DNA from: Gammaproteobacteria bacterium Ga0074134
GTDB taxonomy: Bacteria > Pseudomonadota > Gammaproteobacteria > Ga0077554 > Ga007554
Assembly (NCBI GenBank): GCA_001464965.1
Contig: LNEJ01000049.1
Span: forward strand, 43,199-107,198
Direction: 5' to 3'
DNA: 64,000 nt
Part shown: in pieces, positions 38,746 to 58,595 of the stretch
Layout of the letters: every line of letters starts with the position of its first letter
Position numbering within the stretch: the stretch's first letter is position 1
Program-made: the position numbers and the translations under genes
The notes under the pieces: model-generated
Database searches by the model: none
Told to the model about the DNA's origin: nothing
The model's input: only the letters and a program-made list of their open reading frames with translations

Positions 38746-41142
38746 CTACCGCGTCAGCCCCATATACAGCATCGGCAATTTCTCCGGCAGGCGCTGCACA
38801 TGATCCACCACCATGTAGTTCTTCGCACCAAAAATGCGTGACACGTATTGGTCGGCATGGGGGTCGAGGCTCATGCAATAGGTGAGAATGCCATTGCGAT
38901 TCATCTCTTCCACCGACTTTTTGGCGTCGAAGCGCAGGTATTGCGGGTCACGCACATCGACATCGGCAGGCTCGCCATCGGTGATAACCAGCAGTAGTTT
39001 TTTGCCGGACGACTGATGCTTCAGGAACTGGCCGGCGTGGCGGATCGCCGTGCCCATGCGCGTCGAGAGCTGCCCGGTCATGCCCGCGATTCTGGCCCTG
39101 GCCTTCTCGTCATAAGGCGCGCCGAAATCCTTGAAGCGGTAGTATTCCACGTCATGGCGGCCATTGGAGGCGAACCCATGAATGGCAAACGGATCGCCGA
39201 TCTTGTTCATGGCATCGGCGAGCAGCACCGTGGCCTCGCGTGACAGCGAGAGCACCGAACTCTCCGAACCACGCACCAGCTCGTTGGTGGACTCAGACAG
39301 ATCCAGCAATACCAGAACCGACAAATCACGCACCTTGCGGATATTGCGCATCATGATGCGCGGGTCGGGCATTTCGCCCTGGCGTATTTCGATCATGGCG
39401 CGAATCGCGGCGTTGATGTCGATCTCGTCGCCATCCTCCTGCTTGCGCAGGCGCTGCACACCCTGCGGCTGCATGGCCTCGATCAGATATTTCAGGCGGC
39501 TGATGATGGGCTTGTTCTTGGCCACAATGTCATCAACGACGGACAAGTCACCAAACTGAGTACGCTTTTCCAGCAACGTGCACCAGCTCGGGCGCTCCAG
39601 CTGGATCTGGTAATCCCATTCGTGGTAGTGATAGGGCGGGGAAACCGGCTCCTTGCCTTCCATTTCATTATAGCTCTTGCCCTCGTCCTCGTAGGGAAAC
39701 AGCTCGGTGGGCAGCACCCAGATCTCCTCGGCGTCATCGCCCGCCGTCTCCACGTCGATCTCGTTGACGAACTCCATCAGGCTGACATGCTTGCGCACCT
39801 GCTTGGACGCGCCCCAGGTGGCCTCCAGGCTTTTGGCAAAATCGAATTCCTCGAACTCCCAGAAATAGCGGTTGTCATCGCGGTAGGGCGCACGCAGCAC
39901 ATCGGTGCGCGGATTAAAGGCAAGCCGCATCTGCGTAAGATCATGCGCCAAGGTAACGCCGATGTCCCAGGAGATCCGGTTGGTGTCCAGCGGCGACCCG
40001 CCTCCCGCCACACTCGCAGAACCCTGCGCTGGCGCTCTTCCCTGTGCAGCGTCGGCGAGGTTTTGCTGTGCCTGCCGGAACAGGTCGCGGCCCTTTTGAA
40101 TCCACTCATGATCGTCATGATAATCGGGATCGAGCAGCGCCCGCGCCAAGCGATTGAGATAATCACCTACGCTTGCCTGCTGGTCAGGGGTAATGTTGTG
40201 TAGCACGGCCCACAGTTGGCGCAAACCGGGGAAGGCGTTGATCGCGAGCTGCTCCACCCGCGCGTCCTCGATGACAGAGACCACCGCCATTTGCAGCGGG
40301 TTCAGACTTTCCGCGGAGATGGGCGCGCGCGAATAGACGATATGAGCGGCGGCATGCGCCGCAGTAGCACGGTAAAGTTCAAGGCCGGGGATGCCCTCGA
40401 AATCATCGTAGGCGTCCGGCAGATGAATGAAATAATTCTCGATGAAGGGCTGGTAACCCTCGCGGTTCTCGAAATCGCCGCTGGTGGGGCGCATAAAGAA
40501 ATCCCGGCCCCACAAGGCACGCAAGTAGATGTTGATGCGCCGCTGCACATCCACAAACAGCGTACCCTTGCGCTCCTTTTGCAGCACCGCCAGCGCTTCT
40601 TTGCTTTCCAGCCCAAAATACCGGACCTGCTCGGGATAATCGGTGCGGTGCGCCTGCGCGCCCCATAGCGCCCAGCGCCGCAGGCCACCCAAGGTAAGCT
40701 GGCTAAACAGCACGTCTAGCTTGTCCAGCATCGGACGCAGCCCACGCGGTGCCTGGGCGATCAGGTGATTGAGCAATTGCAGGTAGCCACGGAACAACTG
40801 CTCATCGCCCAGCCGCTTGGCGGCGACAGGCGCGGTGGCGAAAATCATCTCGATCACCGCACCGCTGGTCTTGGACGCCATCATCATCGCGGTCTGCACC
40901 AGATCAGGCACGGCGTCCTCGCCGATTTCCCGCGCCACCTCCGGAGCCTCCTGGATATAGGTGATGACCAGCTCGATACCGCGCCCAAGGTTCTTCAGGC
41001 CCTTTGCGCCTTGCAGGTAATCTTCCAGCCCTCTCGGGCTGAACACCTTTGTCGCCTCCTGCCACGAAGCACGCAGTACGCCCGCAGCGTGCTCACCCAG
41101 TTCGTCGAGGATATCCTGATAGTCTTCGAGATTGATTGCCAT
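38746..41142 (-). CDS. cbbO: CbbO: Rubisco activase accessory protein with VWA domain
   Basis: NorD-like C-terminal VWA (VLVLLDLSESTNE, LLVITDGEPADVDV); adjacent to cbbQ and cbbLS. Confidence 0.93.
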   Translation of the reverse strand: MAINLEDYQDILDELGEHAAGVLRASWQEATKVFSPRGLEDYLQGAKGLKNLGRGIELVITYIQEAPEVAREIGEDAVPDLVQTAMMMASKTSGAVIEMIFATAPVAAKRLGDEQLFRGYLQLLNHLIAQAPRGLRPMLDKLDVLFSQLTLGGLRRWALWGAQAHRTDYPEQVRYFGLESKEALAVLQKERKGTLFVDVQRRINIYLRALWGRDFFMRPTSGDFENREGYQPFIENYFIHLPDAYDDFEGIPGLELYRATAAHAAAHIVYSRAPISAESLNPLQMAVVSVIEDARVEQLAINAFPGLRQLWAVLHNITPDQQASVGDYLNRLARALLDPDYHDDHEWIQKGRDLFRQAQQNLADAAQGRAPAQGSASVAGGGSPLDTNRISWDIGVTLAHDLTQMRLAFNPRTDVLRAPYRDDNRYFWEFEEFDFAKSLEATWGASKQVRKHVSLMEFVNEIDVETAGDDAEEIWVLPTELFPYEDEGKSYNEMEGKEPVSPPYHYHEWDYQIQLERPSWCTLLEKRTQFGDLSVVDDIVAKNKPIISRLKYLIEAMQPQGVQRLRKQEDGDEIDINAAIRAMIEIRQGEMPDPRIMMRNIRKVRDLSVLVLLDLSESTNELVRGSESSVLSLSREATVLLADAMNKIGDPFAIHGFASNGRHDVEYYRFKDFGAPYDEKARARIAGMTGQLSTRMGTAIRHAGQFLKHQSSGKKLLLVITDGEPADVDVRDPQYLRFDAKKSVEEMNRNGILTYCMSLDPHADQYVSRIFGAKNYMVVDHVQRLPEKLPMLYMGLTR

Positions 41143-41324
41143 GTTTCAAGGGTCCAGAGGTCAGAGATCAGTGCGTGGGCCAAATCAAACGTTGCGGATC
41201 CGGCATGCCGCATGATCGAATCCATTGGCTCCGCCTGCGGCATGAGCCAACCTACGCATCTCCAGTGGCCGGGAATCGGGGGCAGCCAGGGGCGCGGCTT
41301 TCACCGCCCCCAGTCTCCTGATGC

Positions 41325-42128
41325 CTAAAAAAACGTCGTTACCGCCGCATCCAGCGCATCGCGCATATCGGGGTCGTCGGTGATCGGACGCACCAGGGTA
41401 ACGCGGCAGGCGTTTTGCGGATCAACGCCCTTGGCGATGAGCGAGCCTGCGTATACCAGCATGCGGGTAGAAATGCCTTCATCCAGGCCGTGCCCCTTAA
41501 GGTTGCGGGCACGCTCGGCGATGTTCACCAGCTTGCCTGCGACATCATTGCTGACGCCGGTTTCATGCGCCACGATCTCGGTTTCGACATCATGCGACGG
41601 ATAGTTGAAATCCAGCGCGCCGAAACGCTGCTTGGTGGATTGTTTCAGATCCTTCATCAGGCTCTGATAGCCCGGATTATAGGAGATGACCAGCTGGAAA
41701 TCGGGATGGGCCTGCACCAGCTCGCCTTTCTTTTCCAGTGGCAGTATGCGGCGCGCATCGGTGAGCGGATGAATCACCACCGTAGTGTCCTGGCGCGCCT
41801 CGACGACTTCATCAAGGTAGCAGATCGCACCATAACGGGCGGCGATGGCGAGCGGTCCGTCCTGCCAGCGCGTGCCGCTGGCATCGAGCAGGAAGCGCCC
41901 CACCAGATCGGAGGCTGTCATGTCTTCATTGCAGGCGACGGTGATCAGCGGCTTGCCGAGTTTCCACGCAATGTATTCGACAAAGCGCGTCTTGCCGCAG
42001 CCGGTCGGGCCTTTCAACATCATCGGCATGCGCACGGAATAGGCCGCCTCATACAGCTCGATTTCATCCGCAACCGGGTGATAATAGGGTTTTTCTGTTA
42101 CCAGGTACTGCTTGATCACGTCGTTCAT
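41325..42128 (-). CDS. cbbQ: CbbQ: MoxR-family AAA+ Rubisco activase
   Basis: [36 protein letters not shown]. Confidence 0.95.
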
Positions 42129-42149
42129 GGTTCACTTGCTCCAAAATGT

Positions 42150-42220
42150 TTAACCACCAAGGCGCCAAAAATCTTGCGCTTTAAATTCTTGGGCGGCGCT
42201 CTGGCGCCATGGTGATTAGG
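42150..42220. repeat. Intergenic hairpin of about 70 bp
   Basis: taaccaccaaggcgcc ... ggcgccatggtgatta, 14/16 paired. Confidence 0.75.
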
Positions 42221-42378
42221 CCGAATGTTTCATAAATTCGCGTGATGATCGCGCAGGATTTTGTTTTACAGGGGAATTTTGCGAGGGAACGGCGTAGTGA
42301 TTGATACGTCCGGCTGAGCAAAAATTTTCTGTAAAACAAAAGACTAGCGAGGGCGCACGAATTTATGAAACATTCGGG
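42221..42378. repeat. MITE-like nested inverted repeat (family 2) between cbbS and cbbQ
   Basis: ccgaatgtttcataaattcg (42221-42240) is perfectly inverted at 42358-42377; inner ttttgttttacag/ctgtaaaacaaaa. Confidence 0.85.
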
Positions 42379-42391
42379 TTATACCCATCTC

Positions 42392-42436
42392 CAAAAAAAA
42401 CCCCCGCCACCTTGCGGCAACGAGGGTTCTTTCATA
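42392..42436 (-). terminator. Intrinsic terminator after cbbS
   Basis: Minus strand: aaccctcgttgccgcaaggtggcgggggttttttttgg. Confidence 0.75.
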
Positions 42437-42469
42437 TGCAGGGGCGGCGGACTCGCCGCCCTTACAGAT

Positions 42470-42826
42470 TTAAACCGTCTTACCGCGATAGACAACCATG
42501 GCAGCACCCTGGGACTGGGCAAAATTGTCATACCCAATCAGGCGGATGTGGTTATCGGGGTTGGCCCTGTGGCAAGCCTCGGCTTCAGCCAGGATCTTGT
42601 TCACGTCGGTCTCGCCGAACATCGGCAGTTTCCACATATACCAGTAGTCATCCATCAGGTTTTCTGGCTCGACGTGCTCAACGGCCGGGTTCCAGCCCTT
42701 TTTGACGAGGTATTCCACCTGCTTGCGGATGTCGTCCTGCGTCATCGCCGGCAGGTAGGAGAAGGTCTCGAACTTGCGGCTGGCGGGATCGCTCAGGCGT
42801 GACTTGTAATCTTGCATTTCACTCAT
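42470..42826 (-). CDS. cbbS: Rubisco small subunit, form IA (IAq-type N-terminus)
   Basis: [47 protein letters not shown]. Confidence 0.97.
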
Positions 42827-42847
42827 TTTTCAACTCCTCTGTGTGTG

Positions 42848-42874
42848 GTAGGGTGCGTTTCACGCACCCTACGT
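42848..42874. repeat. Short hairpin repeat (family 3) between cbbL and cbbS
   Basis: gtagggtgcgtttcacgcaccctac. Confidence 0.85.
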
Positions 42875-42884
42875 TGCTGCATGT

Positions 42885-44309
42885 TTATTTGTGTGCCACG
42901 TCCAGCTTGTCGACGGTATCGAACTCGAACTTGATCTCTTTCCATGTTTCCATGGCGATCTTCAGTTCGGGGCTGCTCTGAGCGGCCTTGGTCAGAATTT
43001 CCTTGCCAACCTTCTCGATCTCAATACCTTCGTTACGTGCCTTCACGCAGGCTTCCAGTGCCACACGGTTGGCCGCGGCGCCCGCCGCGTTGCCCCAGGG
43101 ATGGCCCAAGGTGCCGCCACCGAACTGCAGAACGGAGTCATCGCCAAAGATGCTAACCAGCGCCGGCATGTGCCAGACATGGATACCGCCAGAAGCCACG
43201 GCGAACACGCCGGGCATGGAGCCCCAGTCCTGATCGAAGAAAATGCCGCGTGAACGGTCTTCAGGAATGAAAGACTCACGCAGAATATCGATCCAGCCCA
43301 GGGTCGCTTCGCGGTCGCCTTCCAGCTTGCCAACCACGGTACCGGTGTGCAGATGGTCACCGCCGGACAGGCGCAGGATCTTGGCCAGCACGCGGAAGTG
43401 AATACCGTGGTGCGGGTTGCGGTCAAGCACGGCGTGCATGGCGCGATGGATGTGCAGCAGCATGCCGTTGTCACGGCACCAGTTGGCCAGACCCGTGTTG
43501 GCGCAGAAACCGCCAGTGATGTAATCGTGCATGATGATCGGCGCGCCGATTTCTTTGGCATGCTCGGCACGCTTGTACATCTCTTCCGGGGTGGGGGCCG
43601 TTACGTTCAGGTAGTGGCCTTTGCGCTCGCCGGTCTCACGCTCCGCCTTGATGGTAGCTTCTTGCACGAAGTCAAAGCGCTGCCTCCAGCGCATGAAGGG
43701 CTGGCTGTTGATGTTCTCATCGTCTTTGGTGAAATCCAGACCACCACGCAGACATTCGTATACGGCGCGGCCGTAGTTCTTGGCGGACAGGCCGAGCTTG
43801 GGCTTGATGGTGCAACCCAGCAAAGGACGGCCGTACTTGTTCATGATGTCGCGCTCAACCTGGATACCCATGGGCGGGCCGCCGCAGGTCTTGACGTAGG
43901 CGATGGGGAAGCGCACGTCTTCCAGACGCAATGCACGCACGGCCTTGAAGCCGAACACGTTACCCACCAGCGAGGTGAAGACGTTGACCACGGAACCTTC
44001 TTCGAACAGGTCAATGGGGTAGGCAATAAAGGCGTAATAGCAGGTATCGTCGCCAGGCACGTCTTCGATGCGGTAAGCGCGGCCTTTGTAATAATCCATG
44101 TCGGTCAGCAAGTCGGTCCACACCGTGGTCCAGGTGCCGGTAGAAGATTCAGCGGCCACGGCAGCGGCAGCCTCTTCACGATCTACGCCAGGCTGCGGGG
44201 TGATCTTGAAGCAGGCCAGGATATCGGTGTCCAGGGGGGTGTATTCCGGCATCCAGTACGTTTGACGGTACTCTTTAACGCCGGCGTTGTATTTCTTTGC
44301 AACTGCCAT
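42885..44309 (-). CDS. cbbL: Rubisco large subunit, form IA
   Basis: [41 protein letters not shown] region, [12 protein letters not shown]-like segment. Confidence 0.98.
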
Positions 44310-44527: not shown

Positions 44528-45508
44528 ATGATGAAGAATATCACGCTCCGCCAGCTTAGAGTATTCGAGGCCGTCGCGCGCCACTCCAGTTACACACGCG
44601 CCGCCGACGATCTGCATTTGACGCAACCAGCGATCTCCATGCAGATCAAACACCTGGAAGACAATGTCGGTCTGCCGCTGTTTGAGCAGATCGGCAAGCG
44701 TATTTATCTGACCGAGGCGGGACGCGAGCTTCATCACTACAGCCGCCTTGTCATGCAACAACTCACCGACGCCGATGCGGTATTGTCGGAACTCAAGGGG
44801 GTGACGCGCGGGCGGCTCAACATCTCGGTGGTCAGCACCGCCAAACACTTTGCCCCTTATCTCCTTGCCATTTTCAGCAAACGCTTTGAAGGGGTGACGG
44901 TCAGCCTGAATGTCACCAACCGCGAGACGCTGCTGCGCCAGCTTGCTTCCAACGAGCGGGATATGGTGATCATGGGCGTGCCCCCCAAGCAGAACGATAT
45001 CGTCGCCGAGCCGTTTATGGAAAACCCGCTGGTGGTGATTGCGCCCTACGATCATCCGCTGCGCCAGGAGCGCAACATTCCGCTGGAGCGGCTGCAACAC
45101 GAGACCTTTCTGATGCGCGAGCAGGGCTCCGGCACGCGCATCGCCATGGAGCGGTTCTTTGCGGAACACAATATTCACCTGATCAGCGGCATGGAGATGG
45201 ACAGCAACGAGGCCATCAAACAGGGGGTGCAGGCCGGGCTGGGGCTGGGGATCGTTTCCGTTCATACCGTCAACCTGGAAATAGAGGTCAAACGCCTTGC
45301 CATTCTCGATGTCGCCTCGTTCCCAATCGTCCGCCAGTGGTATCTGGTCCACCAGCGCGACAAACGCCTCTCCCCGGTGGCCCAGGCGTTCAAGGAGTTT
45401 ATTCTGAACGAGGCCAAGGGACTGCTGGAGGCCATGCGTGGCGGGGGAGTTCCGGCACAGGTGTCGAACAAGAGCAAAAAGACCGCAAGCGCGAAGAAAA
45501 ATCCGTAG
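44528..45508 (+). CDS. cbbR: LysR-family regulator CbbR (copy 1), divergent from cbbL
   Basis: MKNITLRQLRVFEAVARHSSYTRAADDLHLTQPAISMQIKHLE. Confidence 0.92.
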   Translation: MMKNITLRQLRVFEAVARHSSYTRAADDLHLTQPAISMQIKHLEDNVGLPLFEQIGKRIYLTEAGRELHHYSRLVMQQLTDADAVLSELKGVTRGRLNISVVSTAKHFAPYLLAIFSKRFEGVTVSLNVTNRETLLRQLASNERDMVIMGVPPKQNDIVAEPFMENPLVVIAPYDHPLRQERNIPLERLQHETFLMREQGSGTRIAMERFFAEHNIHLISGMEMDSNEAIKQGVQAGLGLGIVSVHTVNLEIEVKRLAILDVASFPIVRQWYLVHQRDKRLSPVAQAFKEFILNEAKGLLEAMRGGGVPAQVSNKSKKTASAKKNP

Positions 45509-45518
45509 CAGCAACATA

Positions 45519-45830
45519 TCAGGGCAAATCTTTCTGCCTGCGCATTACCTCGGTATCGGAGACCAGCGCCATCAGGTGATGGCCGCGGCGTATCATCTTG
45601 GCCAGATCCTCCATGACCTCATTGAGCCGCTCCGGGGGCACGACCATCAGAAACAGGATATTGCTGTCGATGTCCATCAACCCATGCTGAATGCCGGAAG
45701 CCCCGGCGCCGCGTGCATCCACCACTGTGTACCCGCTCACCGAATGACGCTTCGATAGTTCGATAAACTGCGCCTCAAGCTCCGCCGTCGCAATGATACG
45801 GACCAATTTCTCTGCTACTAATTTCACCAT
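45519..45830 (-). CDS. PII-like signalling protein (SbtB/CPII type)
   Basis: VDARGAGASGIQHGLMDIDSNILFLMVVPPERLNEVME; immediately downstream of sbtA-type gene. Confidence 0.83.
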   Translation of the reverse strand: MVKLVAEKLVRIIATAELEAQFIELSKRHSVSGYTVVDARGAGASGIQHGLMDIDSNILFLMVVPPERLNEVMEDLAKMIRRGHHLMALVSDTEVMRRQKDLP

Positions 45831-45862: not shown

Positions 45863-46840
45863 CTAGCGCGCAAGCCATTGAGCCAATTCATAATACAGCG
45901 GAATACCGAAGATGACATTAAACGGAAAGGTCACCCCCAGCGACAATGTCAGGTAAAAGGACGGGTTGGCCTCGGGGATCGCCAGCCTCATGGCGGGCGG
46001 CACCGCGATGTAGGAGGCGCTCGCAGCCAGCACTGCAACGAGAGTGACACCACCCACGCTGAACCCCAGAATGGCGTGCCCCACCAGCAGGCCGATTGCC
46101 CCGCCGATCAACGGCATGATTATCCCAAAACCCACCAGAAACACACCCACCTTGCGGAACTCACCGATGCGCTTGGCCGCTTCCAAGCCCATTTCCAGCA
46201 GGAACAGCGACAGGACGCCCATGAATATTTGATCATAAAACGGCATGATTTTTTTCAGGCTGGCGGGCGTGGCGACCACCCCCACCACGATTGCACCAAG
46301 AAGGAGAATCACGCTGCCGTTGGTAAAGGCATCCCGGAGAAGTTCCCTCGTCACCGAGTGGCCACCGCCATTACTCTGCACCTCCGTACCCACACGCGAA
46401 AACTTGGCCAGCAACAGGCCGATGATGATCGCCGGGGACTCCATGATGGCGAGCATGATGATCGGATAGGTTTCATGGGCGACGTTCTGCACTTCCAGGA
46501 ATGCCAGGGCGGTCAGAAACGTACCCGCGCTGACCGAGCCGTAATGGGCGGCGATCGCCGATGAATTCAGGGGGTCGATGCGCCCCAGCCAGCGCAGGAT
46601 GGCGTAGGCCAGCAACGGTAGCAAAAAACCCAAGGCAAGCGCGGCCACCACTGCATCGACCGCCGCACCGAAGTCCGCCTTGGCCAGCTCAATCCCCCCG
46701 TGCAGCCCAATCCCCAGCAACAAGTAAATGGACAAGGTCTTGGATAGATCTGCGGGAAACTTGAGATCGGAGCGTATCACCTGCGCGAGGAATCCAAGCG
46801 CAAAAAACAACACCGCCGGAATGAGAAGATTGGAAAGCAT
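45863..46840 (-). CDS. sbtA: SbtA-type sodium-dependent bicarbonate transporter
   Basis: Ten-TM protein; SSAIAAHYGSVSAGTFLTAL and AASASYIAVPPAMRLAIPEANPSFYLTLSLGVTFPFNV motifs. Confidence 0.93.
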   Translation of the reverse strand: MLSNLLIPAVLFFALGFLAQVIRSDLKFPADLSKTLSIYLLLGIGLHGGIELAKADFGAAVDAVVAALALGFLLPLLAYAILRWLGRIDPLNSSAIAAHYGSVSAGTFLTALAFLEVQNVAHETYPIIMLAIMESPAIIIGLLLAKFSRVGTEVQSNGGGHSVTRELLRDAFTNGSVILLLGAIVVGVVATPASLKKIMPFYDQIFMGVLSLFLLEMGLEAAKRIGEFRKVGVFLVGFGIIMPLIGGAIGLLVGHAILGFSVGGVTLVAVLAASASYIAVPPAMRLAIPEANPSFYLTLSLGVTFPFNVIFGIPLYYELAQWLAR

Positions 46841-47020: not shown

Positions 47021-49297
47021 TCAAGCTGAGCCCGCTCGTGTACGCGCCTTATCACACAAATCGGTGAACGAGAATAATACCGGGATCGTGCTGGCCTGCT
47101 CCAACTCTTTGTCCGGCCTGAACGCCAGAACAAAATTTCCGCGCACCTCCATGTAAAATTTCGGATTGTCCATAAAGAACTGAACCAGCTCGTCAGTCAG
47201 GTAGCCCCGTATGTCGGCGTCATGCTTGGTGTAAACACGATAGATCTCGGAGAATTCCTGGTGATCGTCAAAGGCCACCTCCCGGTAGCCGACCAGATAG
47301 CGTTCAAGGTAGTGCGCTGGCGCCACAATGAAATCCGGAATCGCCTTTTCCAGCGGACCTACGATGACCAGCGTGTGGCGATGCTCCGAGTAATAGTCCG
47401 GCGCACGTGTGTGGCTATAGTCAAACAATTTGACCTGACGGCCTTTATACAGGCCACTCATGACGTTGCGTTTTTGCTTGTTATCGCCACGGCGAAAGTA
47501 AACAAAGTCTTGCGCATTCAAGGTGGTTTCGATGCCCGGCGAAAACGCCAGATCATATCGTCCGGCGATCTCGCTCATCTGCTGCTGGCGCTCTGATAGC
47601 GTCTCTTCCTGCCGCATCAGCTGGACGTCAGGCATGCGCGCAGACAGGGAGTGCTGCGAGAAGGGGTAATAATTCTCCATCCCCTGGATAGTACATGATT
47701 TCCCTTCGCGCAAACATTCTTCACGGAAATGGTGCAAATATTCCATTGCAGTGTGATCAACAATCTTGCCAGACTCGGTGACCACCAGCGCCACATCGGC
47801 ATGCCTGGGGAGTAGTGCGAGCACCTTGTCCAGGTGCAGCAGGTTAAAGCAGACGACCGACGAGAGTGATACTTCACAGGTTTCCTTTCCTGCATGCTCA
47901 ATGGTTTTTACCTTGATCACAGGGCTTTTCAGCACCCCGGATAGATGTCCCCGTAAAAATTCAAACGAACGCACGAAGGTAAAGTGCCCCCTGAGCACAT
48001 ACCTGAAAGAAGGCATCAGCAGATAAAGCAGCAGCAAAAACTCAGCCAGTACACCGAGCAATATCCCCATCAGGAGATCGGTCACAAGAATGGCGGTTAT
48101 CGTGCCCACAAAAATGACAAACTGATCTTTACCTATGCTATAGGTTTTACTGAACACGCCCGGCTGACACAAGCGCCATCCCACATAGGTGATGATCGCC
48201 GCCAGGGTGGCCAGAGGAATACGATTAATCAACGCTGTGCCCAACAGGGTAAATATCAGCAAAAATACCGCGTTGTAGGCATTAGCCCACAAGGTGCGCC
48301 CGCCAGCGTCGATATTCGCCCGGCTTTTTACTCCGCCGGGGATAATGGTCAAGCCTCCCGCCAGGCTGGACAACATATTGGAGACACCCATCGCGCGCAA
48401 CGTGACATTGGGGTTCGACTTTCGTTGAAACGGATCGATCTTGTCCACCGCCGCAATGGTGGCAAGCGACTCGATGCCATCGATAAGGGTCAGCGTAATC
48501 ACAATGACGATGACACTCCACCAGAGCTCCTGCCTCTCCCAGACACCGCTGAAATCCGGCAAAGTGACGCCATGGAGAATTTGATCCGGCACCTTGATCA
48601 ATTGATTTGGCGCGAGCTGGAACAGGTAGCCAAGGACAATGCCGACGCCCGCCACCAGCACTGGCGCGGGCAGCCGCTTAAGCCAATGATTTTTGCTGCG
48701 GTTGAAGAAAAACATCAAGAACAGGCATATCGCGCCGAGCAGGAACACTTTCACATCAAGGCGCAGAAAATAGCCGGGCAGCTTGGCCAGCGCAGCCAAT
48801 ATGCTTTTGGTAGGCGTGGCTGAGACACCGATCAGCAACGGAAACTGCTTGATGATAATCATCACACCGATTGCCGCGAGCATGCCCTCCACCACTGTGG
48901 CGGGCAGGAAAATGGCATATTTGCCCGCCTTCAGCGCGCTCAATGTCACCTGGATCATGCCCGTCAGGCAGATGGCAACCAGCAACAGCGGATAACCCGC
49001 CGCCAGATCGCCACTGCCCAGCGTGAGCATGCCCGCCAGCAGCGCGGGGGCCAAGCCTGCCGCTGGCCCGCTGATGGTCACATAGGCGCCACCCAGCAAA
49101 GGGAAGACCAAACCCGCGATGATTGCGGAAATAAGCCCGGCCACAGGCGGAGCACCCGAGGCAATAGCAATGGCCAAAGAAAGCGGCAGTGAAACCATGG
49201 CCACCTGCAAACCGGCAAGCATGTCATAGCGCCAGTGACGCAGGCCTTTTATGCCGTTTTGCGGCTGGACAGCCGGTGCGTTCGTGACCTCACTCAT
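47021..49297 (-). CDS. SulP-family anion (bicarbonate) transporter with C-terminal soluble extension
   Basis: SulP core (GLQVAMVSLPLSLAIAIASG, NMLSSLAGGLTIIPGGVKSRANIDAGGRT), cytosolic region, then about 180 extra residues. Confidence 0.93.
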   Translation of the reverse strand: MSEVTNAPAVQPQNGIKGLRHWRYDMLAGLQVAMVSLPLSLAIAIASGAPPVAGLISAIIAGLVFPLLGGAYVTISGPAAGLAPALLAGMLTLGSGDLAAGYPLLLVAICLTGMIQVTLSALKAGKYAIFLPATVVEGMLAAIGVMIIIKQFPLLIGVSATPTKSILAALAKLPGYFLRLDVKVFLLGAICLFLMFFFNRSKNHWLKRLPAPVLVAGVGIVLGYLFQLAPNQLIKVPDQILHGVTLPDFSGVWERQELWWSVIVIVITLTLIDGIESLATIAAVDKIDPFQRKSNPNVTLRAMGVSNMLSSLAGGLTIIPGGVKSRANIDAGGRTLWANAYNAVFLLIFTLLGTALINRIPLATLAAIITYVGWRLCQPGVFSKTYSIGKDQFVIFVGTITAILVTDLLMGILLGVLAEFLLLLYLLMPSFRYVLRGHFTFVRSFEFLRGHLSGVLKSPVIKVKTIEHAGKETCEVSLSSVVCFNLLHLDKVLALLPRHADVALVVTESGKIVDHTAMEYLHHFREECLREGKSCTIQGMENYYPFSQHSLSARMPDVQLMRQEETLSERQQQMSEIAGRYDLAFSPGIETTLNAQDFVYFRRGDNKQKRNVMSGLYKGRQVKLFDYSHTRAPDYYSEHRHTLVIVGPLEKAIPDFIVAPAHYLERYLVGYREVAFDDHQEFSEIYRVYTKHDADIRGYLTDELVQFFMDNPKFYMEVRGNFVLAFRPDKELEQASTIPVLFSFTDLCDKARTRAGSA

Positions 49298-49478: not shown

Positions 49479-50456
49479 ATGAGACACGCCACGTTCCGCC
49501 AACTCAAGGTTTTCGAAACCATCGCGCGCCACCTTAGTTTTACCCGTGCGGCGGAAGAGCTCTTCCTCACCCAGCCGACCGTTTCCATGCAGATCAAGCA
49601 GCTCACCGACATCGTGGGCCTGCCCTTGCTCGAGCAGATCGGCAAGCGCATCCATCTTACCGATGCGGGGCGCGAACTCTACACAACCTGCCAGGAAATC
49701 TTCGGTAGTCTCGAGCGCTTCGAGATGACGATAGCTGACCACAAGGGGTTGAAAAAAGGCCGGTTGCGCCTTGCTGTTATCACCACGGCAAAATATTTTG
49801 CGCCACGTGTACTCGGCCCATTCTGCCAGCGTTACCCAGGCATCGATATCTCACTCAAGGTCACCAACCGCGAGCGCGTGCTGGAGCGCTTGAGCGAAAA
49901 CATGGATGATCTCTACATCCTGGGCCAGCCACCGGGAAATCTCGGAACAAACTTCCAGCCCTTCATGGAAAATCCTCTGGTGATGGTGGCGCGCGCCGAT
50001 CACCCCTTGGCAAAAAGGAAAAACATCCCCTTGCAACGTATCGCCGAAGAGCCGTTTATCATGCGTGAACCTGGCTCGGGCATACGTCAGGCAACGCAAC
50101 AACTTTTCGAGGACAACGGCATATCGCTGCGGGTCAGGATGGAGCTGGGCAGCAACGAGGCCATCAAGCAGGGTATCGCGGGCGGGCTGGGGATAGCGGC
50201 ACTGTCGGTACATACCCTGGCATTGGACTGGACCTCCGGGGAATTCGCAATTCTCGACGTGGAGGGCTTCCCCATTCTGCGCCATTGGTACATTGCTTAC
50301 CCTGGCGATAAAAAGCTGTCGGTCGTTGCACAGGCATTCTATGATTACCTGCTTAACGAAGGAAGACAGGTCGCCGAGGCGCCCTTTAATGATTCCCGGA
50401 TCGTTTGGCCCGAAAAAATACTAAAGGCAATTAAAGCGCCATTGCCGATGGCTTGA
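49479..50456 (+). CDS. LysR-family CbbR-like regulator (copy 2), divergent from sulP
   Basis: MRHATFRQLKVFETIARHLSFTRAAEELFLTQPTVSMQIKQL. Confidence 0.91.
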   Translation: MRHATFRQLKVFETIARHLSFTRAAEELFLTQPTVSMQIKQLTDIVGLPLLEQIGKRIHLTDAGRELYTTCQEIFGSLERFEMTIADHKGLKKGRLRLAVITTAKYFAPRVLGPFCQRYPGIDISLKVTNRERVLERLSENMDDLYILGQPPGNLGTNFQPFMENPLVMVARADHPLAKRKNIPLQRIAEEPFIMREPGSGIRQATQQLFEDNGISLRVRMELGSNEAIKQGIAGGLGIAALSVHTLALDWTSGEFAILDVEGFPILRHWYIAYPGDKKLSVVAQAFYDYLLNEGRQVAEAPFNDSRIVWPEKILKAIKAPLPMA

Positions 50457-50592: not shown

Positions 50593-50777
50593 TAATCCGG
50601 CCAAACCCGCTCCGGGTGGAGATTGTTCCGCGCATCATCCCGGCCCGAGGCAGGCGGCTGATCACTTTTGCGCGTGGCCTGTGGCCGCGCTGGCATCGAG
50701 GAGGGCGCCATGGGCGGTTCCTGTGATTTTTTAGCTTGACGCACGCCAGCGGCCAGCTTGGTTTCCAGTTTTTTCAT
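50592..50777 (-). CDS. mcdB: Candidate alpha-McdB (carboxysome positioning adaptor)
   Basis: 61 aa, charged/disordered, overlaps ParA-type gene by ATGA, ends in ...ERVWPD with C-terminal Trp. Confidence 0.65.
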   Translation of the reverse strand: MKKLETKLAAGVRQAKKSQEPPMAPSSMPARPQATRKSDQPPASGRDDARNNLHPERVWPD

Positions 50778-51412
50778 AGATCCAGTATCTCCTCAATGAT
50801 GGCGTCAATTTCCGCGGCAGCGGGTTTGCCGCGATTCGCGAGCTCATACACACTCGCCCCTTCCAGCGCCGCGTTGCGATAGATGGCGCGGCGCTGCACG
50901 GCGTTTTTCAGTGCCGGGATGTCAAATTCAGCGAGCGCCTGCTGCATGGAGCGTGACAACGCATTACGCATTTCAAGCTGATTGAGAATTAAATACGCTT
51001 GTAAATTGCGATTCTCCTGTTTTGCGTTTTCAACCGCCTTGGCCATGCGTACGCTCGCCCATAAATCCATGGGTGACGGCAATACCGGGATCAGCACCCT
51101 GTCCGCCGCCACCATCGCCAGCCGCACGGCGTCGCTCTCCAGCGTCGGCGGACAATCCACCACGATATATTGATAATCCTGCCGGAAACGCCCGATTTCC
51201 CGGCTCAGGCTACCTGCCACTGCGATTACCGTGGCGGGATAGGCTCGTTCATCCGGCGCCAGGCGCGCCCACTGGCTGGCGGATCCCTGCGGGTCGGCAT
51301 CCACCACCAAGGTACGGCCACGGCGAGCCAAGCCCGCCGCCAGATTCATGGTGAGCGTAGTTTTGCCCGTACCACCCTTCTGATTCGCTATCGCAAACAC
51401 CTGTGTGGGCAT
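50774..51412 (-). CDS. mcdA: ParA-type ATPase, McdA-like
   Basis: MPTQVFAIANQKGGTGKTTLTMNLAAGLARRG deviant Walker A; in the cso operon; start at internal MPTQVF. Confidence 0.9.
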   Translation of the reverse strand: MPTQVFAIANQKGGTGKTTLTMNLAAGLARRGRTLVVDADPQGSASQWARLAPDERAYPATVIAVAGSLSREIGRFRQDYQYIVVDCPPTLESDAVRLAMVAADRVLIPVLPSPMDLWASVRMAKAVENAKQENRNLQAYLILNQLEMRNALSRSMQQALAEFDIPALKNAVQRRAIYRNAALEGASVYELANRGKPAAAEIDAIIEEILDL

Positions 51413-51422
51413 ATGTCGTGCC

Positions 51423-51710
51423 TTACGTAGCGTCTGAATTTTCGCAGAAGACATCAATCTCGTGCGCAAATGCGATATCGATGGGACTTATGGTCTTTCC
51501 GTCACGCGCATCAATGGTTATATTGACATAGGTGGTGCCAAAACTGCTGCTTGGGTAATAGCCCTCGCGTTCCGACAAGGCGGCCAGCCAATCGAGAAAG
51601 CGGCGGGTCTCGGCGTAGGATGGAAAAGCCAGGCGGCGGCTGAGCGAGGCAGGTTTGTCGCGTTGCTCCCATGCCGCTGAGAGGGTGCTTTGAGCGCGTT
51701 CGTCGTGCAT
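51423..51710 (-). CDS. Pterin-4a-carbinolamine dehydratase-like Rubisco assembly factor (acRAF)
   Basis: LAFPSYAETRRFLDWLAALSEREGYYPSSSFGTTYVNITIDA; cso operon context. Confidence 0.85.
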   Translation of the reverse strand: MHDERAQSTLSAAWEQRDKPASLSRRLAFPSYAETRRFLDWLAALSEREGYYPSSSFGTTYVNITIDARDGKTISPIDIAFAHEIDVFCENSDAT

Positions 51711-51714
51711 GGCG

Positions 51715-52149
51715 TTACACCTGTTTCATTAGTGACTGTTGCAGCTTATCAATATGCCGGAGATGTGCGATCTCTTCTTCAAGTATAGCCGCAAACAGAG
51801 CACGATTTTCAAAATCTCGGGTACGCTCGCAATAATCCGCCGCTTCCTCGTACAAACGCACGGCCTCCAGTTCGATGGCGCGATTGATATCGAATATCTC
51901 TGGCAGTGTTCTGCCCAGCCTGACAGGGATAAGCTGGGTAGCGTTGGCGGTGGCGCCGTACATCAGCATGCGCTCCATGAGACGCTCGGCATGGATCAGC
52001 TCCTCCTCCACATCACGGCGGAATTGTTCGCTGAGTTCAGCCATACCCCACAACGCGGTAAGTCTGGACTGCATGAGGTATTGTTGCACCGCCGCCATTT
52101 CATGGCTTAGCGCACGGTTAAGAAAACCAATCAGGCGCGGGTTTGGCAT
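51715..52149 (-). CDS. Ferritin-like / bacterioferritin-type protein of cso operon
   Basis: NRALSHEMAAVQQYLMQSRL...EEELIHAERLMERMLMYG...EEEIAHLRHI. Confidence 0.88.
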   Translation of the reverse strand: MPNPRLIGFLNRALSHEMAAVQQYLMQSRLTALWGMAELSEQFRRDVEEELIHAERLMERMLMYGATANATQLIPVRLGRTLPEIFDINRAIELEAVRLYEEAADYCERTRDFENRALFAAILEEEIAHLRHIDKLQQSLMKQV

Positions 52150-52249
52150 TATGGAATCAGCCTCTTTGCGCTGCCGATGTCATGCCGGAAGCAGCCGCCA
52201 TAAGCGAACGCACTACAGCGTGCCTGATTATGGCGGCTTTCCCTCATCA

Positions 52250-52588
52250 TCAGCTGCGAACTTGCGTGATTTCCGCGTCACGTCCGCCTTCGCCATCCGG
52301 CGTTTGCGGCAGGATGTTTTCTACTTCACTGTGCACGCGCGCGATGATGTGCGCCGCCACCAGTCCGTCGCCGACGCGCTCGCAGGCATCCGCACCGGCA
52401 CGCACAGCGGCGTTAACTGCGCCGGTTTCACCGCGCACCAGCACAGTGACATAGCCGCCGCCCACGAACTGACGCCCGATCAGACGCACTTCCGCTGCCT
52501 TGGTCATGGCATCCGCCGCTTCGATGGCAGGCACCAGACCACGCGTTTCAATCATACCCAATGCAATACCATGAAAAGTATTTGCCAT
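52250..52588 (-). CDS. csoS1: Carboxysome shell hexamer protein CsoS1 (C-terminally extended paralogue)
   Basis: BMC domain GIALGMIETRGLVPAIEAADAMTKAAEVRLIGRQFVGGGYVTVLVRGETGAVNAAVRAGADA plus extra tail. Confidence 0.96.
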   Translation of the reverse strand: MANTFHGIALGMIETRGLVPAIEAADAMTKAAEVRLIGRQFVGGGYVTVLVRGETGAVNAAVRAGADACERVGDGLVAAHIIARVHSEVENILPQTPDGEGGRDAEITQVRS

Positions 52589-52652
52589 TTCTTATTTGCT
52601 CCTCAAAAATAATAACTACCCGTATTCAAACCAAGCCTGCGGCTTGTTCAAT

Positions 52653-52955
52653 TCAGCCCGCCGTAGGCTTGCTGGGCAAAATATTTTCCACTTCATTGTG
52701 CACGCGCGCGATGATGTGGGCTGCCACCAGGCCGTCGCCAACACGCTCGCAGGCATCCGCGCCGGCACGCACAGCGGCGTTAACCGCGCCGGTTTCGCCG
52801 CGCACCAGCACGGTGACATAGCCGCCGCCGACGAACTGACGCCCGATCAAACGCACTTCTGCCGCTTTGGTCATGGCATCCGCCGCTTCGATGGCGGGCA
52901 CCAAACCACGCGTTTCAATCATACCCAATGCAATACCAGTCACTTCGTTAGCCAT
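52653..52955 (-). CDS. csoS1: Carboxysome shell hexamer protein CsoS1
   Basis: BMC domain nearly identical to neighbours. Confidence 0.96.
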   Translation of the reverse strand: MANEVTGIALGMIETRGLVPAIEAADAMTKAAEVRLIGRQFVGGGYVTVLVRGETGAVNAAVRAGADACERVGDGLVAAHIIARVHNEVENILPSKPTAG

Positions 52956-53002
52956 GTCTATTCCTCACTTGTCTCATTAAAGAAGTTAAAAAACGAAAAC
53001 CT

Positions 53003-53302
53003 TTACTCGCCAGGACGTGTCGGCAGAATGTTTTCCACCTCGCTATGCACGCGCGCGATGATGTGCGCCGCCACCAGGCCGTCACCAACACGCTCGCAGG
53101 CATCCGCACCAGCACGTACAGCAGCGTTGACTGCGCCGGTTTCGCCGCGCACCAGTACGGTTACGTAGCCACCACCCACGAATTGACGCCCGATCAGACG
53201 CACTTCCGCTGCCTTGGTCATGGCATCCGCCGCCTCGATGGCAGGCACCAGGCCACGCGTTTCGATCATGCCCAATGCAATCCCATACCGTTCATTTGCC
53301 AT
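53003..53302 (-). CDS. csoS1: Carboxysome shell hexamer protein CsoS1
   Basis: BMC domain nearly identical to neighbours. Confidence 0.96.
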   Translation of the reverse strand: MANERYGIALGMIETRGLVPAIEAADAMTKAAEVRLIGRQFVGGGYVTVLVRGETGAVNAAVRAGADACERVGDGLVAAHIIARVHSEVENILPTRPGE

Positions 53303-53357
53303 TTACACTACCTCTCTTTCTCGTAAAATAAAAAATTACACCCAAAAAAATCTTGAC

Positions 53358-53642
53358 TCATGCCACCTTTTTCACAGATGCACTGTCGCCTGCTTCTTCC
53401 GGATCCCACTGGTCTATAATCCCGCCAATCGCAAGATCAGTAAGAACCTTGTAGTTGCCCATGGCGTAGCGCGCTGCCGAACCGCTTGCCGTGAAAACCC
53501 ATTTTCCTGGCGGCACACCCACAGGATCGCTCGCCACGCTGAGCTTGCCTTTGGCGTCGCGCATGATACGCAGCGAGGCACCGTATAAACCCGGAATGCG
53601 GCGGGTTACGACCAGCTCATCAACCACCTGCAAGATGTCCAT
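53358..53642 (-). CDS. csoS4B: Carboxysome vertex pentamer CsoS4B
   Basis: EutN/CcmL-type: VVDELVVTRRIPGLYGASLRIM...GSAARYAMGN. Confidence 0.94.
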   Translation of the reverse strand: MDILQVVDELVVTRRIPGLYGASLRIMRDAKGKLSVASDPVGVPPGKWVFTASGSAARYAMGNYKVLTDLAIGGIIDQWDPEEAGDSASVKKVA

Positions 53643-53645
53643 CGG

Positions 53646-53894
53646 TCATTCTTCCTTCCAGTGATCAATAATGCCGACGATGGTGGCGTCACTCGGATAC
53701 TCCTTGCTGCCCGCCGCCTCGCGGGCCGCCGAACTGCCCACCACAATCACCCAGTCACCGGGAATACATCCCACCGCATCGACTGCGACACTGCGCCCAC
53801 CACTCTTCTCTTTCACTACCAGCAGGGGCTTGTGTCCCATTTCTCTGATGCGATTTGTGGAAACCAATGTCTTTTCTACCTGACAAATCTTCAT
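53646..53894 (-). CDS. csoS4A: Carboxysome vertex pentamer CsoS4A
   Basis: EutN/CcmL-type: MKICQVEKTLVSTNRI...VGCIPGDWVIVVGSSAAREA. Confidence 0.95.
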   Translation of the reverse strand: MKICQVEKTLVSTNRIREMGHKPLLVVKEKSGGRSVAVDAVGCIPGDWVIVVGSSAAREAAGSKEYPSDATIVGIIDHWKEE

Positions 53895-53911
53895 GTTCCA
53901 CTCCAGTAAAT

Positions 53912-55516
53912 CTAGTGACCGTTATCTACTGCCTCATCATTGAGCATTTCTATCCGGCTGCCAGGCATTTTATCCTGTACCGCCATTGCACATACCAACA
54001 GCCCTCTTTGCTTCAGCTCGCTGTATCGCGCTTCAATCGCCACCTTCACGCGCTGGCACTGCGCCATGATGCGCTGTTTCGATCCCGGCACCCGGCTGTC
54101 ATAGCGATAGTGAACGATGATCGGGATAGGCAAGCCATGCGTTACATTCAGCTTCGTGAAAATCTTGATGCCGATATCAAGGTCCGCTGCGCCTTCCTCC
54201 ACGGTATACATCGCTGCGTAATAGGTGAGGTTGCGTATCTGCACCTCTTCAAAGCCTTCGCCCACGCTGATAAACAATTCATTGTGGCCGATGTCGGAAT
54301 AACGCCCGCCGTGGTTCTGGCGCACATATTCGATCTGCGACAAGTTGTTAATGAGCAATGATGCCATCAGCCGCAACATGCCTTCGTGCGGCGCACCGTT
54401 GCCTTGCGCCCAACCCTCGGCACGGGCCGCCTCCTGAATCGCCCGATGCACATATAAATGCGCATTTCCTACATCCAACCCCGCGCTCTGGCGATACAAT
54501 TCCGCGCTATCGACATAACGAAACAGGCTCATCGCGCCATCCGCATCCGGGACGTGTACCTTGATACTGTCAGTGTCTGTATCCACACCGATCAGCAATG
54601 TGTCCACCGACGCGCCGCAGCAGAAGCTGTTCTCTATCGCCTGGCGGAAGGCGACCAGCCGGTTCAGTGCTGCCTCGGCGGCATCGCGCTCGTTGCTGCC
54701 GTGCGCGGCACAACCCTCATGCGCCGGATCAGAACTGCTCCAGTGATACACGGCAATCTTCAGATAGCGCGTGCCGGCATCCGGCAGACTGGGCTTACCC
54801 TCGCGATGGCGGTAAAACTCGGTGCGCATCCAATGCCTGACATTCGCTTCCACATCGAACATCGCGCCGGCATAGGACTTTCTGCGCACCGCGCCATACG
54901 GCAGACGCAACACAAATGTCACCAGCCCCATCAGCCGCCCGTCCGCGCACGGCGAAAAATCTACCTCGTGAAAACCGCAGTCGAACAATGAGCACAACGT
55001 CTGCTCCATCGTTACCTGCTGCCGCGCCTGTTCATCGCAAAACCGCTCCGCCGCCCAATGAAAGGCATGAAACACACAGTGCGCATACAATGTACGCATG
55101 TCCAGCTGCTCCACCCAGGCATCCTCAAGGATGTTCGCCGGCAGAGCAAAACCCAGCCGGGCAGAGGCAACATTCTGGGCTTGCTCGACAAAGCCTGGTT
55201 CGTGCTGGATTGCTGCGATTTCCTTGAGCACTGGAATAATCGCGGCAAACTTGTCCTTCACCGAACGCTCGTAATCGAACAAACGCCGGTTTTCTTCTAC
55301 ATTGGCCAAGGGGTGAAGCGCATTCCCTCTTTCGCTCCCGCCAGCCACATCCCAGGTAGGGTCCGATGGCGATGCCGCAACCGTGGCGGCCTGAGTGGTG
55401 GCGGCGTGCCGATATGGCATCGCCGCGTGGCGCGTACCCAGGCCATAGGGTCCAGCACGCTGGGCGCCCCTGCCATGCGATGTACGATTTCTGAGGCTCA
55501 TTTCCCGCTCACCCAT
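53912..55516 (-). CDS. csoSCA: Carboxysomal carbonic anhydrase CsoSCA
   Basis: HPLANVEENRRLFDYE...; position between csoS2 and csoS4A; start may be MSLRNRTSHGRG. Confidence 0.95.
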   Translation of the reverse strand: MGEREMSLRNRTSHGRGAQRAGPYGLGTRHAAMPYRHAATTQAATVAASPSDPTWDVAGGSERGNALHPLANVEENRRLFDYERSVKDKFAAIIPVLKEIAAIQHEPGFVEQAQNVASARLGFALPANILEDAWVEQLDMRTLYAHCVFHAFHWAAERFCDEQARQQVTMEQTLCSLFDCGFHEVDFSPCADGRLMGLVTFVLRLPYGAVRRKSYAGAMFDVEANVRHWMRTEFYRHREGKPSLPDAGTRYLKIAVYHWSSSDPAHEGCAAHGSNERDAAEAALNRLVAFRQAIENSFCCGASVDTLLIGVDTDTDSIKVHVPDADGAMSLFRYVDSAELYRQSAGLDVGNAHLYVHRAIQEAARAEGWAQGNGAPHEGMLRLMASLLINNLSQIEYVRQNHGGRYSDIGHNELFISVGEGFEEVQIRNLTYYAAMYTVEEGAADLDIGIKIFTKLNVTHGLPIPIIVHYRYDSRVPGSKQRIMAQCQRVKVAIEARYSELKQRGLLVCAMAVQDKMPGSRIEMLNDEAVDNGH

Positions 55517-55526
55517 TCAATCCAGA

Positions 55527-58352
55527 TTATCCGCGCGCACCACCCGAGATCGTGATAGCCGCGCCGCTGCCCGTGTTGCCGCTGCTACCGGTGACACGGC
55601 TTGGCGCCACTTGCGGTTTCTCCATGTCCTTGAAGTTACGCGCACCCACTGCGACTGGCATGTCGCGCGACTCGCCACGCTGGGTCATGTTGCGCCGCGC
55701 GGCCCAGGATCCCTCGGTGCCGGTCACCCGGCTGCCACGCTGCCAATCATCGCCAGTAATGGCGCGCCCATTCTCACGCCCCTCACCGGTAACGCGCTTG
55801 CGCTCGGGTTCAGATTCGAGAGCAACGGGTACGGCGCCTGCCGCAGAATAACCCCGTGCAGCGGTCACGCCCTCGTCAGCGGTGTAGCGGAACTCCGGCG
55901 TGCCGGAAATCAGCCCCGCCGCCAAGGTTACCGGCCCGGTGACCCGTCCGCTGCTGGCATAGGCCGTGCCGGTAATGCGCTGGGTTTGGCGCGTCTGCGC
56001 GCTACGCGCAGGGGTGGTGACGCTAAAATCCGTGCTCGGCACCCGTGGCGATGGCGATGCAGCCGCCCTTGCAGCAGAGAGTGTCACCTGAGAACGGGTA
56101 CCGCTGCCATCGGCTGGGCCGGACACCCGATGATGCGCGTTCATGACTGACGCGGCGGCTGTATCGCACTGCCCCGCAAACTGATCCGCGCCCACATAAG
56201 GGGTACCGCTGACCGGCATGCACACGCCCCGCCCGCCACCCGTCATGCGGCCGTTGATGCCCGGCTGGATGCCGGTCAGCGCCGATCCCGGCGTGCTGCG
56301 CAACGTCCGGACACGCTCCTGACTGGCGGCCGCTTCATCACTCTGGCAAAAAGCAGCGTACTGATCAGGGCCGATATACTCCGTGCCGGTAATCGGCTTG
56401 CAGCCGCCATACTCATCACCCGTCACCTTGCCACTGCGCCCCAACTGGGTGCCGGATACCTGCTGCTGATGCCAGGTGCGTGCAACTCCCACCTTTGCCG
56501 GGCTAGACGCGGGCTTGCTGCCACACAATGTCTGGTACTGCTCTGCGCTAACATACTCTGTGCCGGTGACGGGTTTGCACGCGCCGTACTCGTTGCCTGT
56601 CACTCTTGAGCTGCGATCCACGTCTGTACCGGTTATCCCGCGTTCGCTTAAGGTGTGCGTCAATCCCACTTTGGCAGGCGCACCCGGCTCGGCACATAAC
56701 CGACCGGACTGGTTGGGGGTGTAATATTGCGTGCCCGTAAGCTGCCGGCATGAGCCGGGTTCATCGCCAGTCACACTTACGCTTCGTCCGACTGCCGTAC
56801 CTGTCAGCCCCTGGCCGCCGAGCGTTGCCATCTCCTGCACCTTGCGTGGTCCCGCTACGGAATCGGCGGCACAAAAAGACTTGAATTGCTCCGCTCCAAG
56901 ATATTCGGTGCCTGTCACCGGCGTGCATGCGCCATGCTCATCGCCGGTGACTTTCACTGAACGTCCCACCTGTGTTCCTGACACGGCAAGCCCATGGGAT
57001 GTCCGCGTGACACCCACCTTTTTAGGAGCGTCGCCACTCTCTTCGCTCGCGCACGGCACGGCGGATGCCTTCGGATTCAGGTATTCATCACCTGTAATGG
57101 CGCGGCACGAGCCTGTCTCGTCTCCTGTCACCTTCGAGCTGCGGCCCACCTCGGCGCCAGTGACGGTTTGTCCGCGCCCTGTTTGCACGGCGCTCACTTT
57201 GGCTGGGGCAGCCGCCAGACGTTCAGCGCAAAACTCATCGAAGCGCTCGGCGCCGATGTATTCCGTGCCTGTGACGGATTTGCAGGCGCCATGTTCATCG
57301 CCCGTTACTTTCATGCTGCGGCCTACCTCTGCGCCCGTGACCGCCTGGCCACGCCCGGTACGGGTCATGCCTACCTTGGCGGCGTTCGCCGCCGGGCGGG
57401 TGCCGCAGAAGCCTTCGTATTGATCCAATGAGATATATTCGGTGCCGGTGATGGCGCGGCAAGTGCCTGGCTCATTGCCTGTCACCTTGGTGCTGCGCTC
57501 CACGCGCGTGCCGCTGATAAGCTGGCCGCGCAGCGTTGAAGACTCCTCAACCTTGGCAGGAACATCGGCCGATTCTGCAGCTGGGCGCACCCGTCCAGAG
57601 GGACGGCAGGTAGCCTGACTGCCACGGCCAAGCCTGCATAACTCTTCACGGCGCGCGCGCGCGATATCGCGTCCCGACAAGCCCTTGGCGGCAGCATTCT
57701 TCCATGCCCCTTCGCGCCCCTTGACCACTTCCGCCCTGGTCACGCCAGTGGTCTTGCCCAACGCTGCCTTACCGTGATTCGCCAGCGCCTGTCTTCGCGC
57801 AAGGCACAAGGCGCGGACTGTCGACACGACGGGGCTGTCAACGCCGGTATTCGCCTCCACTGTCTCGCATATCTGATCCAACTGGGCCTCAGCCTGAAGC
57901 ACCGTCGTGGCCTCGGGAGACTGGCCGGGCTTGCAGCCACAACCACAACCTTCTTTTTTGGCGGCCGACGCCTCAACGGGCAGCTCCGCAGCTGCTGTAT
58001 TCACCTGCGCGGGTTCCGCAACTGCGGGCCGGGACCTGCCCTGCTGCACCGCCTTTAACCCCGCCTTGCCATTTTGCGCAAGCGCCTGGCGCCGTGCGCG
58101 GGCACGTTCACTGCCACTCATGCTGTTTGACGAGGAGGACGGGGCCGGCAGTGTTTGTGTGACTGGTGCGGCCTGGGCTTTTACTTCAGCAGGTTTTTCT
58201 GCGGGTTTTGCAGGGCTAGGCGCGCTGCGCATCGCTGTCGGCTTGCTTGCTGCCAGTCCTGCCTTGCCATTGCTCGACAAGGCACGACGGCGCTGCAAAG
58301 CGATATCCCGCCCGGAGGCAGGCGCTGGTACGTTGTTTGTCGCTTCATTCAT
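55527..58352 (-). CDS. csoS2: Carboxysome assembly scaffold CsoS2
   Basis: N-terminal RRRALSSNGKAGL-type repeats, about 8 middle VTGDExGxCxxVTGTEY repeats, C-terminal VTGSSGNTGSGAAITISGGARG; start at internal MNEATNN. Confidence 0.96.
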   Translation of the reverse strand: MNEATNNVPAPASGRDIALQRRRALSSNGKAGLAASKPTAMRSAPSPAKPAEKPAEVKAQAAPVTQTLPAPSSSSNSMSGSERARARRQALAQNGKAGLKAVQQGRSRPAVAEPAQVNTAAAELPVEASAAKKEGCGCGCKPGQSPEATTVLQAEAQLDQICETVEANTGVDSPVVSTVRALCLARRQALANHGKAALGKTTGVTRAEVVKGREGAWKNAAAKGLSGRDIARARREELCRLGRGSQATCRPSGRVRPAAESADVPAKVEESSTLRGQLISGTRVERSTKVTGNEPGTCRAITGTEYISLDQYEGFCGTRPAANAAKVGMTRTGRGQAVTGAEVGRSMKVTGDEHGACKSVTGTEYIGAERFDEFCAERLAAAPAKVSAVQTGRGQTVTGAEVGRSSKVTGDETGSCRAITGDEYLNPKASAVPCASEESGDAPKKVGVTRTSHGLAVSGTQVGRSVKVTGDEHGACTPVTGTEYLGAEQFKSFCAADSVAGPRKVQEMATLGGQGLTGTAVGRSVSVTGDEPGSCRQLTGTQYYTPNQSGRLCAEPGAPAKVGLTHTLSERGITGTDVDRSSRVTGNEYGACKPVTGTEYVSAEQYQTLCGSKPASSPAKVGVARTWHQQQVSGTQLGRSGKVTGDEYGGCKPITGTEYIGPDQYAAFCQSDEAAASQERVRTLRSTPGSALTGIQPGINGRMTGGGRGVCMPVSGTPYVGADQFAGQCDTAAASVMNAHHRVSGPADGSGTRSQVTLSAARAAASPSPRVPSTDFSVTTPARSAQTRQTQRITGTAYASSGRVTGPVTLAAGLISGTPEFRYTADEGVTAARGYSAAGAVPVALESEPERKRVTGEGRENGRAITGDDWQRGSRVTGTEGSWAARRNMTQRGESRDMPVAVGARNFKDMEKPQVAPSRVTGSSGNTGSGAAITISGGARG

Positions 58353-58595
58353 GCTTGCATACTCAACCAATTTGGATTTAACCTCACGGCAGATCAAATC
58401 AATCTCCGCGCCTCGCCCGGCGTTGACACTAAGGAAACTCTCGCAAATATCCTTACCTATGGCACGACTATACAATCCGCGCACATATAAATAACAATCA
58501 GTAATAAATATTATTTTTATAGGTTTTTTACTATGCAGGTTCTATCAACGGTGTAGCAACCTGATTTCAGCAAGATATTTTTACAAGGATACGCT

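Follow-up and report, generated by a model that had tools for sequence, protein, structure and literature searches.

An open reading frame on the minus strand (47021-49297) of the 64,000-nucleotide stretch of DNA analysed here, the window, encodes a 758-residue protein which consists of a SulP membrane core, a STAS domain and a further C-terminal domain, termed X in the following. Upstream of this gene and on the same strand lies a carboxysome cluster (50774-58484) with the order parA, acRAF-like, bacterioferritin-like, three csoS1 genes, csoS4B, csoS4A, csoSCA and csoS2, in which csoSCA was assigned by PF08936 (E 1.4e-50) and the other genes by sequence recognition and by their conserved order in relatives. 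When parA is taken to start at its upstream TTG codon, its frame and the acRAF-like one overlap at 51423-51469; with a more internal start, of the kind present in L028, there would be no overlap. Downstream of the SulP gene and likewise on the minus strand are the genes for an sbtA-type bicarbonate transporter (45863-46840; Pfam Sbt_1, E 9.5e-116) and an sbtB-like PII protein (45519-45830; Pfam P-II, E 2.9e-13), followed by cbbL, cbbS, cbbQ and cbbO (38746-44309), which were recognised by sequence and keep their order in relatives of the same genus. Two LysR-type regulator genes, both with Pfam HTH_1 and LysR_substrate matches, are encoded on the plus strand. One of them (44528-45508) is probably CbbR-like as judged by its position, and the second (49479-50456) is divergent from the SulP gene. 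The gene order of the whole region is kept in three genomes of the same genus (L027, L028 and L046); in other families the genes occur in a different arrangement.

The protein belongs to the SulP (SLC26-type) anion transporters. Its single Pfam match is Sulfate_transp at residues 24-398 (PF00916, E 2.7e-51), with a score of 174.9 bits against a cut-off of 23.2, and the best sequence match in the PDB is the SulP membrane domain 6ki1 (E 2.2e-29). From the Pfam match and the PDB alignment (residues 20-410) we placed the membrane core at residues 24-430 (48008-49228, minus strand). The divergent STAS domain at residues ~431-556 (47630-48007, minus strand) stays below Pfam detection when the window protein is scanned as a single sequence. 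Its assignment as the C-terminal cytoplasmic STAS domain of the SulP / SLC26 family is therefore indirect and comes from relatives: three aligned relatives match PF01740 (best 3.9e-8), and the alignment profile finds 3oir, the STAS structure of a SulP sulfate transporter, with an E-value of 0.0021. In an alignment of 23 relatives domain X starts at about residue 563, which gives a length of ~195 residues (563-758; 47024-47611, minus strand). A preliminary description of this DNA had already noted an extra domain after the SulP core and STAS region, in the interval 47021-47557 (residues 580-758). Our analysis bears this out, and the three peptides quoted there are present letter for letter in the 758-residue frame.

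No Pfam or NCBIfam model scored above its cut-off when X was scanned as the window domain and in a set of 23 X sequences, and sequence searches of the PDB gave no confident family. The nearest family is DUF3137 (PF11335), itself of no known function, which resembles the C-terminal half of X weakly and in 6 of the 23 sequences (best E 3.3e-5). All scores checked lay below its curated gathering cut-off of 26.1 bits, with 14 bits for X of the window (E 0.045-0.049) and 24 bits for the best single relative checked. We also considered a SulP-carbonic anhydrase fusion; no carbonic anhydrase family of Pfam or NCBIfam was found in the 23 X sequences, and by this sequence comparison X does not appear to be a carbonic anhydrase domain. 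Two scans of viral contigs revealed no relative, and a viral structure library gave no significant match.

X is conserved. In comparisons of the window with three close relatives, dN/dS as estimated by a simple counting method was 0.06-0.09 for X, 0.06-0.07 for the membrane core and 0.05-0.08 for STAS, and X is therefore under purifying selection. Matches outside the genus reach E-values down to about 1e-52 and include other families and phyla. Since X recurs in this way and is constrained, it is more than a chance extension of one reading frame. Between families it diverges faster than the membrane core, with roughly 40-50% vs 66-71% identity. Within the gammaproteobacterial clade R602, R603, D626, H629, Y635, Y636, H641 and E717 are invariant. 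Several of these lie in the motif DYSHTxAPxYYxxxxHT (residues 626-642; 47372-47422, minus strand), whose named positions are identical in an alignment of 8 representative gammaproteobacterial proteins and which differs in X of Bacteroidota.

The fusion of X to SulP was found in 14 of 274 sampled Gammaproteobacteria, spread over 10 families; stand-alone X occurred in three. In the family of the window genome, 7 of 8 genomes, this one included, carry X on a SulP protein. In a phylum-wide sample X turned up in just 2 of 249 genomes, the window genome among them. Among Bacteroidota the fusion was detected in 8 of 248 genomes, a count that takes in the centre genome G279, with open frames of 736-767 residues, and stand-alone X in one. 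Two different SulP-X genes can coexist in one genome, as seen in the Flavobacteriales genome G280 with its second, contig-cut copy (L076, 1834-3063). A tree built from 50 SulP membrane cores placed all X-bearing proteins inside one clade (100/100), within which the gammaproteobacterial SulP-X proteins formed a clade of their own. The SulP clade comprises 25 rows with X and 3 without, a distribution for which two state changes suffice, e.g. one gain and one loss. One protein without X, encoded behind dabA-dabB in L006, is a SulP of 529 residues that ends after STAS; its genome is devoid of any X match, and this case is likely a loss of X. The preliminary description had left room for X being part of the standard SulP architecture, which it is not, as it is limited to one clade of the tree. 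No description of the SulP-X architecture was found in the literature searched, and we regard it as a new variant of the already known SulP transporter family.

It had also been suggested that X resembles stand-alone uncharacterised bacterial proteins, and such proteins were indeed identified (L020-L022 and L059). They are 227-251 residues long and consist of one N-terminal hydrophobic helix, a stretch of basic residues (e.g. KRRR) and X. Because the basic residues follow the helix, the positive-inside rule places X of these proteins in the cytoplasm. In the fusion, X has the same starting point as the soluble part of these proteins. In L073 (5000-6426) a stand-alone X gene abuts the gene of a membrane-anchored LytTR regulator end to start, which suggests an operon. 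The only relative in the plasmid collection is a Nostoc protein in which X sits behind a DUF3592 domain; it is encoded on a plasmid of Nostoc carneum (L050, 5425-6477) and carries the annotation "hypothetical protein".

The genomic surroundings of SulP-X differ between the two phyla. csoSCA is present in 13 of the 14 gammaproteobacterial SulP-X genomes vs 53 of all 274. By a hypergeometric test P is 1.7e-9, and 2e-7 when the own genus is left out; both values assume that genomes are independent, an assumption that does not hold for related ones. In Gammaproteobacteria the SulP-X gene often adjoins cso, sbtA and sbtB. In G019 it is located 0.84 Mb from the cso locus, and in G075 it lies mid-contig with cso on another contig. 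In Bacteroidota no cso or cbb genes were found in the neighbouring stretches read, and two of the SulP-X genes adjoin dabA-dabB (L072, 862-8620, and L074, 5851-13053); the same pair stands beside the SulP gene without X in L006 (5511-11551). Other Bacteroidota SulP-X genes adjoin a universal stress protein gene (L067, L069, L070, L071, L075 and L077) and, in L067, L069, L070 and L071, also a Na+/H+ exchanger gene. Neighbours were assigned by family scan in L069, where a TrkA-N domain was confirmed, and named by resemblance in the remaining loci. X is thus not specific to carboxysomes, and the theme common to SulP-X loci is inorganic carbon and pH. A survey of this architecture near cbb and cso genes, as proposed in the preliminary description, supports the linkage to cso in Gammaproteobacteria but not its specificity, given the other contexts in Bacteroidota.

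Conversely, not every SulP at a cso locus carries X. Near csoSCA of 40 cso-bearing genomes without SulP-X, 10 SulP frames were identified, distributed over 9 loci. None of the nine complete frames has X: two are BicA-like by motif and seven have a long insert. The tenth ends at a contig end, so that X is not assessable there. Hence, at least three SulP lineages occur at cso loci, and X is the mark of one of them. The insert (L140, L143 with two copies, L147, L148, L152 and L156) comprises ~100 polar, coiled-coil-like residues in the middle of the membrane core and splits the Pfam match in two.

A structural comparison of the C-terminal domain, which had been recommended earlier, yielded one significant match. 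AlphaFold2 models were built for X of the window (pLDDT 59, pTM 0.59) and for X of the Flavobacteriales locus L004 (pLDDT 72, pTM 0.71). The confidence of the former is low and that of the latter higher. The two domains are 27% identical, and the models are not fully independent since both were built on the same five-sequence alignment. Among 350,542 PDB chains Foldseek returned 6t84, the structure of TtfA, as the sole match with E < 0.001 for both models. For the window domain the E-value was 1.0e-4 with a probability of 1.00 and TM scores (query/target) of 0.54/0.59, the next match having E 0.18; for L004 the values were 1.5e-5, 1.00 and 0.59/0.64, the next E-value being 0.41. The superposition is moderate (TM 0.54-0.64, rmsd 4.8-5.5), and the structural alignment contains 12-15% identical residues. 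We take 6t84, released in December 2019, to postdate the AlphaFold2 training set, so that recall of this structure by the model is unlikely. At the sequence level three profiles of X relatives missed 6t84 at E <= 10. Taken together, the models, which are of modest confidence, predict a TtfA-like fold for X, and a common ancestry of X and TtfA appears probable on this structural basis.

TtfA (MSMEG_0736 / Rv0383c), the trehalose monomycolate transport factor A, is a membrane-anchored mycobacterial factor that co-purifies with MmpL3 and is required for transport by it (PMC6593404). Its N-terminus forms a membrane helix (residues 2-24) and its C-terminus is cytoplasmic; the essential region spans residues 1-205, and by BLAST it was found in mycolate producers only (PMC6593404). 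The fold is called atypical in the title of the structure paper. In a review, a direct binding of TtfA to MmpL3 was doubted and the mode of action of TtfA was regarded as unsettled (PMC7458404).

With respect to the substrate, the window protein is not a BicA, as it scores 149 bits with the NCBIfam BicA equivalog compared to a cut-off of 880. Moreover, it has Glu276 at the position held by Asp, presumably a cation-site residue, in the IDALLT motif of BicA-type proteins. Owing to the low score and this replacement, sodium coupling should not be assumed. Bicarbonate is a plausible substrate by analogy, considering the locus with cso, cbb and sbtA-sbtB and a carboxysome-adjacent SulP of Thiomicrospira pelophila, which rescues the growth of carbonic-anhydrase-null E. 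coli and raises internal inorganic carbon (PMC12628692). In particular, the ability of the T. pelophila protein to support such a strain makes bicarbonate likely.

In our view, the gene rather probably encodes a SulP transporter, most likely for bicarbonate, which carries a TtfA-fold domain in cis after STAS. X would be located on the cytoplasmic side, against STAS and the membrane core of the SulP dimer, and may, in analogy to TtfA and MmpL3, control the transport activity or the assembly of a bicarbonate-type SulP. As the fused X starts at the same point as the soluble part of the stand-alone proteins, the SulP-STAS part would replace their membrane anchor. The related dabAB-linked SulP of L006 does without X, which indicates an accessory rather than a catalytic role in transport.

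Other functions of X were taken into account. It could bind a small ligand, such as a nucleotide or another signal of the carbon status, and gate the transporter in the way SbtB acts on SbtA. An SbtB-like PII protein is encoded nearby, and the invariant polar and aromatic residues of X would suit a binding site; these residues could equally well be structural, the Pfam and NCBIfam searches linked X to no known ligand-binding family, and the TtfA crystal structure has no obvious lipid pocket according to a review (PMC7458404). We therefore consider ligand gating unlikely. Somewhat less likely still is a docking function, in which X links the transporter to carboxysomes or to another component of the CO2-concentrating system, e.g. 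SbtB, and allows local delivery of bicarbonate. This idea would fit the strong genomic association of SulP-X with cso, sbtA and sbtB in Gammaproteobacteria and the motif that is invariant in representatives of this group and different in Bacteroidota. However, the architecture is shared by Bacteroidota, where the stretches read contain neither cso nor cbb genes; this demotes a carboxysome-specific docking, and the SulP-X genes of G019 and G075 are found outside the cso locus.

Finally, X might be nothing more than a non-specific extension of the C-terminus that plays no part in transport, as its divergence between families and the existence of a related SulP without X could suggest. We consider this very improbable, because dN/dS of X about equals that of the membrane core, X has been kept across two phyla within one SulP clade and it also exists independently as stand-alone proteins. 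Accessory control of a SulP transporter by a TtfA-like X is the reading we prefer. A wider proposal is more tentative: TtfA could possibly belong to a widespread superfamily of transport-factor domains located close to the membrane on its cytoplasmic side. Its members would occur in Gammaproteobacteria, Bacteroidota and Cyanobacteria as proteins of their own with a membrane anchor and, in SulP-X, fused to a bicarbonate transporter gated by the domain. If the TtfA-like reading of X is right, TtfA, which is essential and whose mechanism is unclear, gains tractable relatives in non-pathogenic bacteria. In SulP-X the factor would be joined one-to-one to its transporter and thus be open to a simple deletion study. 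In addition, X would set a class of carboxysome-adjacent SulPs that have an accessory domain of their own apart from the BicA-like and other classes that lack it, a distinction that bears on the choice of bicarbonate transporters for transfer into other hosts.

Compared with known systems, the window protein shares the membrane core, the STAS domain and the location in a CO2-concentrating locus with SulP/SLC26 transporters including BicA and the T. pelophila SulP, for some of which bicarbonate uptake has been published; it differs from SulP/SLC26 proteins including BicA by the domain after STAS. This domain resembles TtfA in its predicted fold, in its similar length and in presumably serving a membrane transporter, and the stand-alone X proteins likewise combine a single membrane helix at the N-terminus with a cytoplasmic domain. 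In contrast, TtfA is a separate protein that serves the RND lipid transporter MmpL3, whereas the X domain considered here forms part of a SulP anion transporter.
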